A model generated the notes under the pieces. That model had not been told where the DNA came from. It saw nothing but the letters and a program-made list of their open reading frames with translations, and made no database searches. Of a stretch of DNA of 64,000 nt, positions 18,477 through 23,285 are shown piece after piece. Where the stretch lies: contig CP015606.1 of assembly GCA_002284915.1 (NCBI GenBank), positions 930,001-994,000 on the forward strand, read 5' to 3'. Origin of the DNA: Actinobacteria bacterium IMCC26077 (GTDB lineage: Bacteria > Actinomycetota > Actinomycetes > Nanopelagicales > Nanopelagicaceae). The position numbers and the translations under genes are program-made. Numbering within the stretch: position 1 is the stretch's first letter; each line of letters opens with the position of its first letter.

Positions 18477-19619
18477 TTAAATGAGACTTAGCATTCGATC
18501 TAGGGCAACCCGAGCAAAATGGGCGGTACGTTCTGGAACTCTGATTTCGTTTACTACTCTACCTTCGACAAGCGACTCCATTGCCCAAACTAAATGGGGA
18601 AGATCTATTCGGTTCATCGTCGAGCAGTAGCACACAGATTTATCGAGGAAAACAATTTGCTTGTCAGGGTGCTGCTGCGCCAAACGTTTGACGAGGTTGA
18701 GTTCGGTGCCGATTGCCCATTTGCTACCTGCTGGAGATTTGCTCACTGTCTGGATGATCTGTTCCGTTGAACCAATGATGTCGGCATTGATAGCAACCTC
18801 ATGTTGGCACTCAGGGTGGACCATCACTTGTACTCCTGAAATTCGTGAACGAACTTCTCGGATTGAGTCGAGGGAGAATCGAGCATGGACGGAGCAGTGT
18901 CCGCGCCAGAGAATCATCTTGGCCTCTCGAATCTCGATATCGGTGAGTCCACCGCGAGGTTTCCATGGATTCCAGACAACACAATCCTCGAGAGCTAGGC
19001 CCATCTTGAGTACTGCGGTATTTCGTCCGAGATGCTGGTCGGGAAGAAAGAGCACTCTCTCACCCTTACTGAATGCCCATGTAAGCGTGGTGTGTGCATT
19101 GGATGATGTACATACTGTGCCATCGTGTTCACCAGTGAAGGCCTTTATCGCCGCGGATGAATTCATATACGTCACAGGTATAGTTTTTTCAGCGACACCC
19201 AGCTCTTCGAGAACGCGCCAACATTCGGCAACCTGTTCGTAGTTGGCCATATCTGCCATCGAACAACCGGCCGCTAGATCGGGGAGAATCACGCGCTGTT
19301 CAGATGAGGTGAGGATGTCAGCGCTCTCAGCCATGAAATGTACGCCGCAGAAGATGATGAAAGGTGCATCAGGTCGAGCAGCCGCATCTCGCGCCAGCTT
19401 GAATGAGTCACCCGTGACGTCGGCAAATTCGATTACCTCATCGCGTTGATAGTGGTGACCCAACACGAAAGCTCTGGAGCCTAACTCTGCTCGTGCGATT
19501 CGCGCGCGTTCCTGCAGCGCAGGGTCGCTTGCCTCTGGGAGATCGCCCGGACAGGAGACGCCGCGCTCGCTTGCAAGGTCGCTCCCGCGCCCCAAGAGAA
19601 GCAGGTCAGTGATACTCAT
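18477..19619 (-). CDS. nadA: Quinolinate synthase NadA
   Basis: A 380-aa [4Fe-4S] enzyme that condenses iminoaspartate with dihydroxyacetone phosphate to quinolinate in NAD synthesis. The three cluster cysteines are seen in IIFCGVHFMAE (about 111), DGTVCTSSNA (about 190) and VHPECQHEVA (about 280), and the substrate-contact motif GHHYQRDEV near residue 54 is intact. nadB and nadC are not in the window. It is divergently arranged with erpA, which encodes an Fe-S carrier, about 100 bp away, a sensible pairing for an Fe-S enzyme. Confidence 0.94.
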   Translation of the reverse strand: MSITDLLLLGRGSDLASERGVSCPGDLPEASDPALQERARIARAELGSRAFVLGHHYQRDEVIEFADVTGDSFKLARDAAARPDAPFIIFCGVHFMAESADILTSSEQRVILPDLAAGCSMADMANYEQVAECWRVLEELGVAEKTIPVTYMNSSAAIKAFTGEHDGTVCTSSNAHTTLTWAFSKGERVLFLPDQHLGRNTAVLKMGLALEDCVVWNPWKPRGGLTDIEIREAKMILWRGHCSVHARFSLDSIREVRSRISGVQVMVHPECQHEVAINADIIGSTEQIIQTVSKSPAGSKWAIGTELNLVKRLAQQHPDKQIVFLDKSVCYCSTMNRIDLPHLVWAMESLVEGRVVNEIRVPERTAHFARVALDRMLSLI

Positions 19620-19722: not shown

Positions 19723-20070
19723 ATGAGCGCTGAAGTAACGACGAGCGATGGCGTGGTCTTGTCTGATCAGGCTGCATCCAAGGTGAAGGCCTTACTCGAG
19801 CAAGAAGGTCGCGATGATTTACGACTGCGAATTGCAGTACAACCAGGTGGCTGCTCTGGTCTGCGCTACCAGCTCTATTTCGACGATCGCTCACTCGATG
19901 GTGACATCCTGAAGAACTTCGGCGGGGTCGAAGTTGTAACTGACAAGATGAGCTCGCCGTACTTGATGGGCGCAACGATTGATTTTGTCGACACTATCGA
20001 GAAGCAGGGATTCACTATCGATAACCCCAATGCCAGCGGTAGCTGTGCATGCGGTGATTCGTTCCACTAA
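19723..20070 (+). CDS. erpA: Iron-sulfur cluster insertion protein ErpA (A-type carrier)
   Basis: A 115-aa A-type carrier that delivers Fe-S clusters to apoenzymes. The three ligand cysteines are in QPGGCSGLRYQLYF (about 44) and the C-terminal GSCACGDSF (about 108 and 110). A strong AAAGGAG site lies upstream. Actinobacterial genomes keep this gene close to ctaC, as here, which fits supply of clusters to respiratory proteins such as the Rieske subunit, although nadA next door is an equally plausible client. Confidence 0.93.
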   Translation: MSAEVTTSDGVVLSDQAASKVKALLEQEGRDDLRLRIAVQPGGCSGLRYQLYFDDRSLDGDILKNFGGVEVVTDKMSSPYLMGATIDFVDTIEKQGFTIDNPNASGSCACGDSFH

Positions 20071-20088: not shown

Positions 20089-21072
20089 ATGACAATCCTC
20101 GTCACTGGTTCGGTGGCCACTGACTACATGATGACCTTTCCGGGTCGGATTGCAGATTCCATCGTGGTGGATTCACTCGAGAAGATTTCACTCTCATTTC
20201 TTGTCAATGATCTAGAAGTGCGTAGGGGCGGCACCGGCGCCAACATCTCCTTTGGGATGGGCGTACTCGGAGGTTCACCAATCCTGATCGCCGCAGTTGG
20301 TGAAGACTTCACTGACTACAACTCATGGCTCACTCGCCATGGTGTAGACACTTCGGAGATTTACATCTCGCAAACCCAGCTGACTGCGCGATTTACTGTC
20401 ACCACTGATCAGGCGCACAATCAAATTGCCTCGTTCTATCCAGGGGCGATGAGCGAAGCGCGCAATATTGAGCTCGGCCCAATCTTCGAACGACATCAGG
20501 GGATAGCGCTTGTGCTCATCGCGCCCGATGATCCGGATGCGATGCTCCGCCACACGGATGAATGTCGAGCCCATAAGGTTCCCTTCGCTGCGGACATCTC
20601 TCAAACGCTCGCAAGTCTCGATGGAGAGGCGATCAGAAACCTTCTAGTCGGCGCAAAGTACTCCTTCCTTAACGAATATGAGATGGCGCTGGCGATGCAG
20701 AAGACCGGCTGGGGGATGATTGACTTCCTCGATAACGTCGAAATTTGCATCACCACGTTGGGCGCGCGCGGCGCGCGAATCGAATCAGCATCCTTTCCAA
20801 CAATCGAAGTGGGCGTTGCTAAAGAACGTGCCAAAGTCGATCCCACAGGCATCGGAGATGCGTTTCGAGCAGGATTCATCTCGGCGCTAGCTTGGGGAGC
20901 TGAGCTTGAGCGGTGCGCTCAAGTTGGTTCCATGGTTGCGACCTACTGTTTAGAGACACAAGGCGGTCAGGAGTATCGATTTACGCGCGAACAGTTTCTT
21001 GAGCGTTTCGCAGAGAGCTACGGCAATTCCACCCGACAAGATTTGGAACAGCTCATTCCACGGAAGTTTTAG
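20089..21072 (+). CDS. PfkB-family carbohydrate kinase, adenosine-kinase-like
   Basis: A 327-aa ribokinase-fold enzyme. N-terminal GSVATDYMMTFPG and RRGGTGANISFGMGVLGG match the PfkB substrate-binding region; the C-terminal anion-hole/catalytic motif is DPTGIGDAFRAGFIS (about 250), with the catalytic Asp present although the usual GAGD reads GIGD. Position between erpA and ctaC matches the adenosine kinase AdoK of mycobacteria, so adenosine is a reasonable substrate. A TACCTT element 8 bases before the ATG suggests its own leaderless transcript. Confidence 0.85.
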   Translation: MTILVTGSVATDYMMTFPGRIADSIVVDSLEKISLSFLVNDLEVRRGGTGANISFGMGVLGGSPILIAAVGEDFTDYNSWLTRHGVDTSEIYISQTQLTARFTVTTDQAHNQIASFYPGAMSEARNIELGPIFERHQGIALVLIAPDDPDAMLRHTDECRAHKVPFAADISQTLASLDGEAIRNLLVGAKYSFLNEYEMALAMQKTGWGMIDFLDNVEICITTLGARGARIESASFPTIEVGVAKERAKVDPTGIGDAFRAGFISALAWGAELERCAQVGSMVATYCLETQGGQEYRFTREQFLERFAESYGNSTRQDLEQLIPRKF

Positions 21073-21288
21073 CTAACTCTTCTCGATATCGAAGCTGGTC
21101 TCGCTGATAATGGTGACGTGATTACCCGTCATGCGCGCCCAAGCGATCAAATCGCTCTTAGTCGCAGGGTCATCGGCCTTCAATGTGATGTGATCGCCTG
21201 GATTCATAGTTCGCACCGCTTTACTCAGTTGAATAATCGGTGTTGGACAGAGCGCTCCTAAACAATCTAAAACCAAGTTTTCGCCCAT
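21073..21288 (-). CDS. TusA-family sulfurtransferase
   Basis: A 71-aa TusA/SirA-like sulfur carrier with the active-site motif LDCLGALCPTPIIQL (the reactive cysteine is that of CPTP, about residue 13). The ATG at 21288 lies 10 bp beyond the stop of the cysteine-desulfurase-like gene on the same strand; upstream in-frame codons fall inside that gene and are ignored. The pair would pass persulfide sulfur from the desulfurase to TusA, for thiolation or molybdopterin-type pathways, if the desulfurase is active. Confidence 0.88.
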   Translation of the reverse strand: MGENLVLDCLGALCPTPIIQLSKAVRTMNPGDHITLKADDPATKSDLIAWARMTGNHVTIISETSFDIEKS

Positions 21289-21298
21289 CGCTACTTGA

Positions 21299-22405
21299 TC
21301 ACGCTCCCGCTTCGGTTCGTAACTGAGAGATGATTCCAGGCAAGAGCGCCAAGAATCGTTTGACATCGCTCTCCTGGACTCCATGCATCAACGAAATTCG
21401 AATATTGCCGTGGGTGAGTATTCCCATCGCTTGCAAGACATGGCTTGGCTCGATAGCCGATGCAACACAGGCCGAACCCGATGCAACTGCGAATCCTTCA
21501 CGCGCCAGAGCGTTCACTAAGCGTTCGCCCGAGATATTGAGAATTGAAACTGAGAGAATATGCGGCAGCGATTCTTCGCTTTTGCCACTGCCGGCAATAT
21601 CTACATCGGGGATTGTGCGCGCGATAACTTCACGCATCATGGTCGTTAAATTTCTGAGGCGCTCGGACTCGTTTTTTGAATCTGCGAGCCAGCCAGTTAG
21701 AGAAGCGGCGGCAGCAAGAACCAATGGCAGCGAGTAGGACTCTGGACTGCGCCGAGTTGTAGCGGTGGCAAGGGGATTAGCCCACCGGTGAGATTTGTTG
21801 ATCAGCATGACGCCCAGTCCGGAGGGTCCATCCCAACTCTTAGCGGGGAAGTCGGCAGTGCTCCAATAGTGAGGAAGACGAACAAGAGGACCAGAGGCGG
21901 AATAATCAATGTGTAGCTCTGCCTTCATGGCGCCAACTATCTGGCTGATCTCTTTCAGGTTTTGGCAGACGCCGGTTTCGATATTTGCCGACTGAATCGC
22001 GACGATTGAATCGCGCTCCACCTCTTCGAGAAGTTGATCATGATCGATCAGACCCGAATGAGAAACGCGAAGCGTGGCTGAACTTTTGGTGCGAGCAGCG
22101 AGTGCAAGAATCTCTTGTCGTTCCGTAGCCCCGACAATGAGCTTTCCCTCTGTAAAAGCGGGCATCCCTTGGAGCGCCATCGGGGAGATCAGAGCGGATT
22201 CGCCCCAAAACTCAAGCTCTGTGGGGTTCACCCCAAGGTGGCCGGCAATCTCCTCACGGGCCGCTTGGAGCAGGTGGCGAGAGTGCGCGCTCGCCTCCCC
22301 GAGACCACCTGGCTGAGCCCACCCCCGTTCAAAGGCAGCGAGGAGGACCGCTGCTCCGGCAGGGTGGAGTGGACGTTCGCCGTCGAATGCACCTGCTGTG
22401 ACCAT
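21299..22405 (-). CDS. Divergent cysteine desulfurase (class V aminotransferase fold)
   Basis: A 368-aa PLP-fold protein clearly related to NifS/IscS: it keeps the mobile-loop cysteine in ASGSACVASAIEPSHVLQAMGI (about 320) and the GPSGLGVMLI glycine-rich segment. By eye, however, key cofactor residues differ: the TEH motif reads ATERQE (His to Arg), the D-x-x-Q motif reads IDYSASG (Gln to Ala), and the PLP lysine block normally SAHKWGGP-like reads PAKSWDGP, with Lys one position early and Ser at the expected site. An in-frame TTG lies further upstream (22432), but GTG/ATG codons at 22411-22405 follow TACCGT and match family N-termini. It overlaps nothing and runs into tusA. Confidence 0.8.
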   Translation of the reverse strand: MVTAGAFDGERPLHPAGAAVLLAAFERGWAQPGGLGEASAHSRHLLQAAREEIAGHLGVNPTELEFWGESALISPMALQGMPAFTEGKLIVGATERQEILALAARTKSSATLRVSHSGLIDHDQLLEEVERDSIVAIQSANIETGVCQNLKEISQIVGAMKAELHIDYSASGPLVRLPHYWSTADFPAKSWDGPSGLGVMLINKSHRWANPLATATTRRSPESYSLPLVLAAAASLTGWLADSKNESERLRNLTTMMREVIARTIPDVDIAGSGKSEESLPHILSVSILNISGERLVNALAREGFAVASGSACVASAIEPSHVLQAMGILTHGNIRISLMHGVQESDVKRFLALLPGIISQLRTEAGA

Positions 22406-22469
22406 CACCACGGTACAGACGGTACTCGCCAACTCCTGGGTTGGCGAAAGGGGCGACTATCCTTGCCCT
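22406..22469. promoter_or_regulatory. Divergent promoter region of the desulfurase-like gene and ctaC
   Basis: On the plus strand TATCCT (22458-22463) is followed by 6 bases and the ctaC ATG at 22470. On the minus strand two TACCGT copies lie just ahead of the GTG-GTG-ATG start cluster of the desulfurase-like gene. Both genes look leaderless. Confidence 0.5.
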
Positions 22470-23285
22470 ATGGCAAAAGGAGCGCAGAAAATCGGGGAAA
22501 CCTCGAGCAACGGAGGTAGTCGCGTCCCCAATCGAGCGCGCGCAATCCTTCTAGCTCCGCTGATTTTTGCGCTTGCTGGGTGCTCCTCCGAGAAGTTGCC
22601 AGCGCTTGGTTTCCCACGTGGAGTGACAGATATCAATGACATCTCACTCTCGCTTTGGCAGGGAGCATGGATCGCTGCCTTCATCGTTGGAGCGATCACG
22701 GCAGTGTTGATTCTCTGGGCTGCTTTTCGTTATCGCGTAAAACGTCGGGCAAATGTAGGTGGGCCAGAGCAACTTCCTGAGCAAGTGAGTTATCACTTGC
22801 CGCTTGAAATCATCTACACCGTCGTTCCATTCATCATCGTTGCAGTGCTCTTTTATTTCACAGCTCGCGATCAATCGACGATTACCAAAATTTCCCCCGC
22901 CGGAGTCGCGGTTCATGAGATTGATGTCAACGCGATCCAATGGGCATGGCAGTTCACTTACCCAGAGGCAGAAGATAAAACGGTTACCGGCACGCCAGAA
23001 AAGCTTCCCACGATGTACTTGCCAGTTGGTGAACGCATTCGCATTAACCTGACAGCGTCTGATGTCGTGCATAGCATTTGGATTCCAGCATTCATGATGC
23101 AAATGCAAGCGCTTCCTTATGTGAAGAACCAATTCGAATTTACCGCTCAAAAAGAGGGTACCTACCCAGGATTCTGCAATATGCACTGCGGTCGGAATCA
23201 CTCTCAAATGCGTTTCACCGTAAAGGTTGTCTCTCCAGCTGAATACCAGAATTACATCAACGCACTTAAAGGTGGTGTCGCATGA
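22470..23285 (+). CDS. ctaC: Cytochrome c oxidase subunit II (CtaC), lipoprotein
   Basis: A 271-aa CuA-bearing subunit of the aa3 oxidase. It has a lipoprotein signal (LIFALAGC, cysteine about 37), two transmembrane helices (about 65-90 and 112-135) and an external cupredoxin domain. The CuA site shows [11 protein letters not shown] and [13 protein letters not shown] (about 230-245) with both Cys, the His and the Met; the residue between the cysteines that is usually Glu is Met here. The ATG at 22470 is chosen over an upstream ATG because a TATCCT box lies 6 bases before it. The stop overlaps the ctaD start (ATGA). Confidence 0.95.

Follow-up and report, generated by a model that had tools for sequence, protein, structure and literature searches.

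The gene at positions 21,299 to 22,405 of the window (the whole stretch of DNA analyzed here, 64,000 nucleotides of contig CP015606.1 from Actinobacteria bacterium IMCC26077) encodes a protein with the fold of a cysteine desulfurase but without the residues that hold the PLP cofactor. What can such a protein (to be referred to as P0001) do? The genes of this locus are:

18477–19619, minus strand: NadA, [4Fe-4S] quinolinate synthase, long kind; the proposed client, three genes away
19723–20070, plus strand: ErpA/A-type Fe-S carrier; conserved neighbor
20089–21072, plus strand: PfkB-family carbohydrate/nucleoside kinase; conserved neighbor
21073–21288, minus strand: TusA-like protein with a CPTP motif, directly downstream of P0001; the frame is open to an ATG at 21384, and the likely start is Met33 at 21288
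21299–22405, minus strand: P0001, Lys-less NifS/IscS-like protein; 368 residues from the ATG at 22405, 377 residues if it starts at the TTG at 22432
22470–23285, plus strand: CtaC, cytochrome c oxidase subunit II, divergent neighbor; the frame is open from 22398, and the start at 22470 is inferred

The start of P0001 is possibly upstream, at the TTG codon, because the residues preceding the ATG are conserved. In the region 22398–22470, the NifS-like gene and ctaC point away from each other and have overlapping open frames, leaving both true starts uncertain. The two genes are likely to have a regulatory region in common.

Overall fold and the PLP site

P0001 has the class V aminotransferase fold (PF00266, 65.1 bits against a cut-off of 21.5). 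Pfam also detects five of six further orthologs tested, the divergent L091 being below threshold. The AlphaFold2 model of P0001, based on an alignment of 101 rows, has a mean pLDDT of 92.6, and the tip of the Cys loop (residues 324–326 in the 377-residue numbering) is of low confidence. A Foldseek search with this model finds IscS and Nfs1 structures, with query TM scores of 0.83–0.87 for the ten best matches listed. The best match in the Protein Data Bank by sequence, in both a sequence search and a profile search, is Archaeoglobus fulgidus IscS2. The best NifS model of NCBIfam gives 132.8 bits, below its equivalog cut-off of 530.75, but this shortfall carries little weight because the IscS of the same genome is also below that cut-off.

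The residues of P0001 were aligned to those of E. coli IscS (MG1655), which provides the reference numbering. The roles in PLP stacking, the phosphate cup and substrate contact are those that we take the IscS positions to have.

22118–22120, minus strand: Arg96 (codon CGA), at the position of the PLP-stacking His104; Arg in 103 of 115 family sequences
21905–21907, minus strand: Asp167 (GAT), equivalent to Asp180; retained in 113 of 115
21896–21898, minus strand: Ala170 (GCC), at the position of Gln183
21839–21841, minus strand: Lys189 (AAG), at the position of His205; Lys in 16 of 115
21836–21838, minus strand: Ser190 (AGT), at the position of the catalytic Lys206
21467–21469, minus strand: Cys313 (TGT), the mobile-loop Cys, equivalent to Cys328
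21398–21400, minus strand: Arg336 (CGA), equivalent to Arg354; retained in 113 of 115

Compared to IscS, His104 is replaced by Arg96 (TEH to TER), Gln183 by Ala170 (DATQ to DYSA), His205 by Lys189 and the Schiff-base Lys206 by Ser190. In addition, Thr76 is replaced by Ala and Ser203 by Pro187, and with these all three residues of the phosphate cup (Thr76, Ser203 and His205) are changed. On the other hand, the persulfide-carrying Cys of the mobile loop (Cys313, in a GSAC motif), Asp167 and Arg336 are the same as in IscS. The alignment register at Lys206 is secure, because the Gly-Pro that follows is conserved in all 115 family sequences. The earlier note, made from the sequence alone, had picked out the mobile-loop Cys and the changes of His, Gln and Lys (HK to KS) by eye, and all of them are confirmed by the alignment and recur throughout the family. 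It had also allowed that a proper alignment might place a Lys on the catalytic position, with His and Gln provided by nearby residues; the alignment gives no such arrangement.

The source genome (a single contig of 1.55 Mb, 99.9% complete) has two canonical desulfurases elsewhere. A SufS (L001) is encoded beside SufC and SufU, and an IscS-type enzyme (L002) beside MnmA; Lys, His and Gln are present in both. P0001 belongs to the same superfamily, with identities of 60/361 and 84/350 residues to SufS and IscS, respectively, but it lacks the full PLP site that both of them carry. The earlier note had advised a search for such enzymes, and its view that P0001 is not an ordinary housekeeping desulfurase agrees with their presence and with the lost PLP residues. 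NadB and NadC are also found in this genome, in a single gene run far from the window. P0001 as a substitute for either of them was rejected, as both genes are already there.

Conservation and selection in the family

A match was found in 170 family genomes, and the set for Nanopelagicaceae contains 115 sequences taken from 114 of them. Lys206 is found in none of these sequences and the mobile-loop Cys in all; with 80 orthologs from other families, this Cys is present in 195 of the 195 sequences compared. His104 is also absent throughout, with Arg in 103 sequences, Lys in 11 and Pro in one. Gln183 is present in three of the 115, Thr76 in none among the residues listed, and Ser203 is replaced by Asp in 86. 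The change of His104 to a conserved Arg or Lys (114/115) and of Ser203 to Asp (86/115) looks as if the PLP pocket had been remodeled for another purpose.

Could PLP still be used, bound non-covalently or via another Lys residue, for an unusual chemistry? Other PLP proteins can retain their cofactor with no Schiff-base link, and Asp180 and Arg354, which touch PLP and substrate in true desulfurases, are kept in this family. Because of their conservation, some ligand may still bind P0001. However, the family has lost Thr76, Ser203, His205 and His104, and most of its sequences carry Asp where Ser203 would be. Moreover, no Lys column is common to the whole family in the 115-sequence alignment; the best column has Lys in 98 sequences and Gly in the window. 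Judged from the alignment, the shifted Lys189 is not a replacement for Lys206. Continued use of PLP is decidedly improbable.

The best-conserved positions in the family are the Cys-loop block and an NxExG motif. The reading frames are open in all 115 sequences, and certain Cys, Gly, Ser, Asn and Glu residues never vary. The dN/dS ratio is 0.053–0.178 in eight Lys-less family pairs (dS up to about 1.0; five of 13 pairs were dropped for saturated or very high dS), compared to 0.138–0.173 in three Lys-bearing pairs. The Lys-less protein is under strong purifying selection. A decaying gene is therefore scarcely credible: the family evolves fast, with a branch of 0.67 at its base, and the gene is lost in part of one genus (g16), but the dN/dS ratios, the open frames and the invariant residues refute decay. 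Since identical changes recur throughout the family, they are due neither to sequencing error nor to chance. Sequencing error, a wrong register and a pseudogene were ruled out by the 115 relatives and the dN/dS ratios. One genome (G015) has two different NifS-like copies (L018 and L048), both Lys-less, which reflects contamination or duplication. A scan of genome contigs for relatives gave only three loci, of the same genus.

Organization of the locus

The gene order in the family is AKR, DUF3043, NadA, ErpA, PfkB, (TusA), NifS-like, CtaC, CtaD and CtaF, with small gaps. Among 14 genus representatives, TusA was not seen in four, PfkB in one and NadA in two; nadA is near the NifS-like gene in 12 of the 14, and not in the stretches covered for L091 and L095. 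Near relatives of the locus occur in public records titled Candidatus Fonsibacter lacus and Bifidobacterium breve (L044 and L045), labels that look wrong because the content matches the actinobacterial genus of the window.

The earlier note had proposed that P0001 is a sulfur-carrier scaffold for the adjacent TusA, in which case it would be a docking partner that passes the Cys313 persulfide to TusA, for example for thiolation. A TusA gene directly follows in 78 of the 114 family sequences with loci long enough, and the CPxP motif is intact in all 79 TusA proteins found. In three wider actinomycete loci, a TusA match lies within or overlaps the NifS-like open frame. However, a TusA that is always present, as expected of the partner of a desulfurase, is not observed. 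The neighboring TusA is missing in 36 of the 114, and genomes of g2, g13, g16 and g17 that retain the NifS-like protein and its Cys have no PF01206 match anywhere. NadA tracks the NifS-like protein and TusA does not, and retention without TusA is seen in nature. The scaffold is unlikely, and as the whole explanation it is ruled out by these genomes. The earlier reading was thus right about the PLP site and the non-housekeeping character of P0001, was not right about the TusA scaffold as stated, and had not noticed the link to NadA; its suggestion of another chemistry may still apply.

In each of the 14 family genera covered, and in most of the loci covered from other families, the divergent neighbor ctaC adjoins the gene, which would fit a role in cytochrome c oxidase assembly. 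Such a role is very unlikely, as ctaC stays in eight of eight genomes without the protein (one of them partly covered), while NadA is gone. A link to the oxidase was rejected on the persistence of ctaC where the NifS-like gene is lost.

Co-occurrence with NadA

Among 201 family genomes, the NifS-like protein is found in 170 and NadA in 170. Both are present in 166 and neither in 27; four have the protein only (G006, G171, G186 and G206) and four NadA only (G080, G108, G162 and G219). This pairing was worked out by hand from the listed genomes and includes 11 unlisted genomes with no match. All eight discordant genomes are 62–88% complete. In the 99 good-quality family genomes, NadA and the protein are both present in 82 and both absent in 17, with zero exceptions. 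Fisher p values for this link are overstated, because they ignore relatedness.

Eight loci without the pair were examined; each lacks both NadA and the NifS-like gene and still has AKR, DUF3043, ErpA, PfkB and CtaC in order (the G167 locus was covered only up to part of CtaC). On the CtaC tree, a single branch separates seven of the losers, within g16, from the other genomes; G167, with a fragment of 99 residues, was left out of this tree. With one change on the tree, the absence in g16 goes back to a single loss event. A second loss, in g5, is perhaps represented by one genome (G008, 85% complete and 7% contaminated). The 99 genomes are not independent observations, because the co-loss amounts to one g16 event plus one g5 genome.

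NadC, which is encoded at a distance, was found in all 13 genomes compared that have the protein and in none of the 12 that lack it. In comparison, SufS is retained in all 12 genomes without the protein. The part of g16 in question (L246–L253) has no NadA, NadC or NifS-like gene although the genomes are near-complete, and these bacteria are therefore predicted to depend on external NAD precursors.

In a class survey of 296 genomes, two kinds of NadA were distinguished by visual reading of the E-values. The short, high-scoring kind is found in 63 of the 296, none of which has a clear NifS-like ortholog; the best match in these genomes is no better than 3e-55, apart from an ambiguous one of 4e-59 in G239. 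No NifS homolog lies within about 6 kb of a short NadA in any of the six regions read. For the long kind, which is that of the window, 14 regions were read from other actinomycete genomes without a clear NifS-like ortholog. A NifS homolog is near NadA in 13, and the remaining region ends at a contig end. Ten of the 13 are IscS/NifS homologs, with Lys in all those readable at the site (one is cut short), and three are the Lys-less NifS-like gene. Against the link, the protein is found with no NadA match in G346 (98% complete), where only about 2.4 kb of contig remains beyond the gene, and without NadA in G057 (75% complete) and G248 (86% complete).

Linkage of the NifS-like gene to NadA is conserved, and the gene is lost together with NadA and NadC. 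Both the linkage to nadA and the joint presence and loss are as expected of a NadS-like protein, with few independent losses. Against a reading based on NadA, ctaC and tusA are nearer neighbors of the NifS-like gene than nadA is.

Loss of the Lys residue in other families

The other-family set of 80 orthologs was selected partly for divergence. Lys206 is kept in 64 of the 80, which is no estimate of frequency because of this selection, and is absent in 16, spread over seven families. It is replaced in these mostly by Asp, Ser, Ala, Gly or Met. The PLP cup is also eroded in the 16, compared to the Lys-bearing orthologs, where Ser203 and Asp180 are both present in 64 of 64. The mobile-loop Cys is retained in 80 of 80, including 16 of 16 of the Lys-less proteins. 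The three Lys-less genes near NadA in the class survey are additional to these. Lys-less forms are thus seen in several actinomycete families (L213, L230, L198, L212, L200, L201 and L211), and some have Asp in place of Lys, as in A. fulgidus IscS.

A tree was calculated in which a subset of 37 family sequences (out of 115) was combined with the 80 other-family orthologs and two IscS sequences; 12 active-site columns were blanked. The family of the window is a single clade (support of 99). The Lys and no-Lys states require at least five changes on this tree, three of them forced by strong branches, on a tree with long branches that was obtained by a quick search.

Comparison with known systems

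A close known parallel, A. fulgidus IscS2 (PDB entries 4eb5, 4eb7 and 4hvk; D199K mutant, 4r5f), also has the NifS/IscS fold and its Cys residue but no Schiff-base Lys. In the cited passages, this IscS is inactive as a desulfurase because the Lys is an Asp, it provides a Cys ligand to the cluster on IscU, and Methanosarcina acetivorans IscS1 likewise has no Lys (PMC7585200). P0001 shares the replaced Lys and the retained Cys. However, the stacking His (EH) and the Ser of the phosphate site are still there in A. fulgidus IscS, whereas P0001 has lost this His as well as the Thr and Ser. Moreover, the partner of A. fulgidus IscS is IscU, while the gene linked to P0001 is nadA.

NifS-type proteins have also been tied to NAD synthesis. 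NadS is described in the passage cited as a NifS-type desulfurase in the nad cluster of Corynebacterium glutamicum, ndnR-nadACS (PMC11995493), and in another, NAD synthesis is the function given for Bacillus subtilis NifS (PMC6522883). P0001 resembles both in its tie to NadA. In contrast, they are described as desulfurases and P0001 has no catalytic Lys; its gene lies between ctaC and pfkB, not in a nad operon. A canonical actinomycete ortholog with TusA (such as L032 and L040) matches P0001 in locus order, with about 35% identity (129/372, aligned to G052). It keeps the His, Thr, Ser and Lys (HKWGGP) that P0001 does not, and in the loci read TusA is in or overlaps the same open frame.

Arabidopsis SufE3 is a SufE–NadA fusion, according to the portion of the source cited (PMC5890173). 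It resembles the role proposed for P0001, as a dedicated non-desulfurase sulfur-handling module for NadA. In contrast, the SufE3 module is a SufE domain with no NifS fold, and it works alongside an active desulfurase.

Proposed function and implications

P0001 is without the parts for PLP, has kept its Cys, and is present or absent with NadA, and it therefore probably helps in the maturation of NadA. We favor, as somewhat better than an even proposition, a non-catalytic descendant of a NadA-dedicated NifS that serves the maturation of the NadA cluster through its Cys. The ancestor would be a PLP-dependent cysteine desulfurase of an actinomycete NifS-type lineage dedicated to NadA. The PLP site would then have been lost in this family, which has retained the fold along with the mobile-loop Cys, the NxExG motif and the Arg after the loop.

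The Cys could function in two ways. It may take persulfide sulfur from SufS or IscS and hand it on for the [4Fe-4S] cluster of NadA, perhaps with TusA as an intermediary in some genomes. Alternatively, it may be a transient ligand of the cluster, as proposed for the Lys-less A. fulgidus IscS. In both cases P0001 would presumably bind no PLP and make physical contact with NadA. It is improbable that P0001 has acquired a different function in NAD synthesis, catalytic or ligand-binding and without sulfur transfer, for example as a sensor or an allosteric partner of NadA. The conserved basic residue at His104 and the Asp at Ser203 suggest a rebuilt pocket, but the Cys loop is the best-kept block, which points to thiol chemistry, and with NadB and NadC in the genome there is no need to replace them. 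A search of the literature for a desulfurase pseudoenzyme, or for TusA with NadA or in actinobacteria, found no such report, subscription journals being mostly outside its scope.

Maturation of NadA through the Cys of a Lys-less protein would have consequences beyond this locus. It is an evenly balanced proposition that the desulfurase fold has repeatedly shed PLP catalysis to give a dedicated non-enzymatic maturation factor of NadA, with the Cys loop as a persulfide shuttle or a ligand. If so, the essential ancestral service to NadA would come from the Cys loop, as delivery or docking, and not from the production of sulfur, and the Lys-less IscS proteins would be a recurrent functional class, more than an archaeal oddity. 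These proteins would be a natural experiment in which two jobs of a desulfurase, making sulfur and handing it over, are separated. Auxotrophy assays could then ask what a NifS homolog does for NadA without making persulfide.

The finding may also bear on the inactivity of some heterologous NadA enzymes in E. coli. In the part of the report cited, Streptomyces cattleya NadA is detected by mass spectrometry but fails to complement an E. coli nadA deletion, and co-expression of SUF does not rescue it (D'Angelo et al., PMC8896826). Streptomyces presumably belongs to one of the families with the canonical ortholog. In the family of the window, NadA, NadC and the NifS-like protein disappear jointly, and their absence may serve as a marker of NAD auxotrophy.
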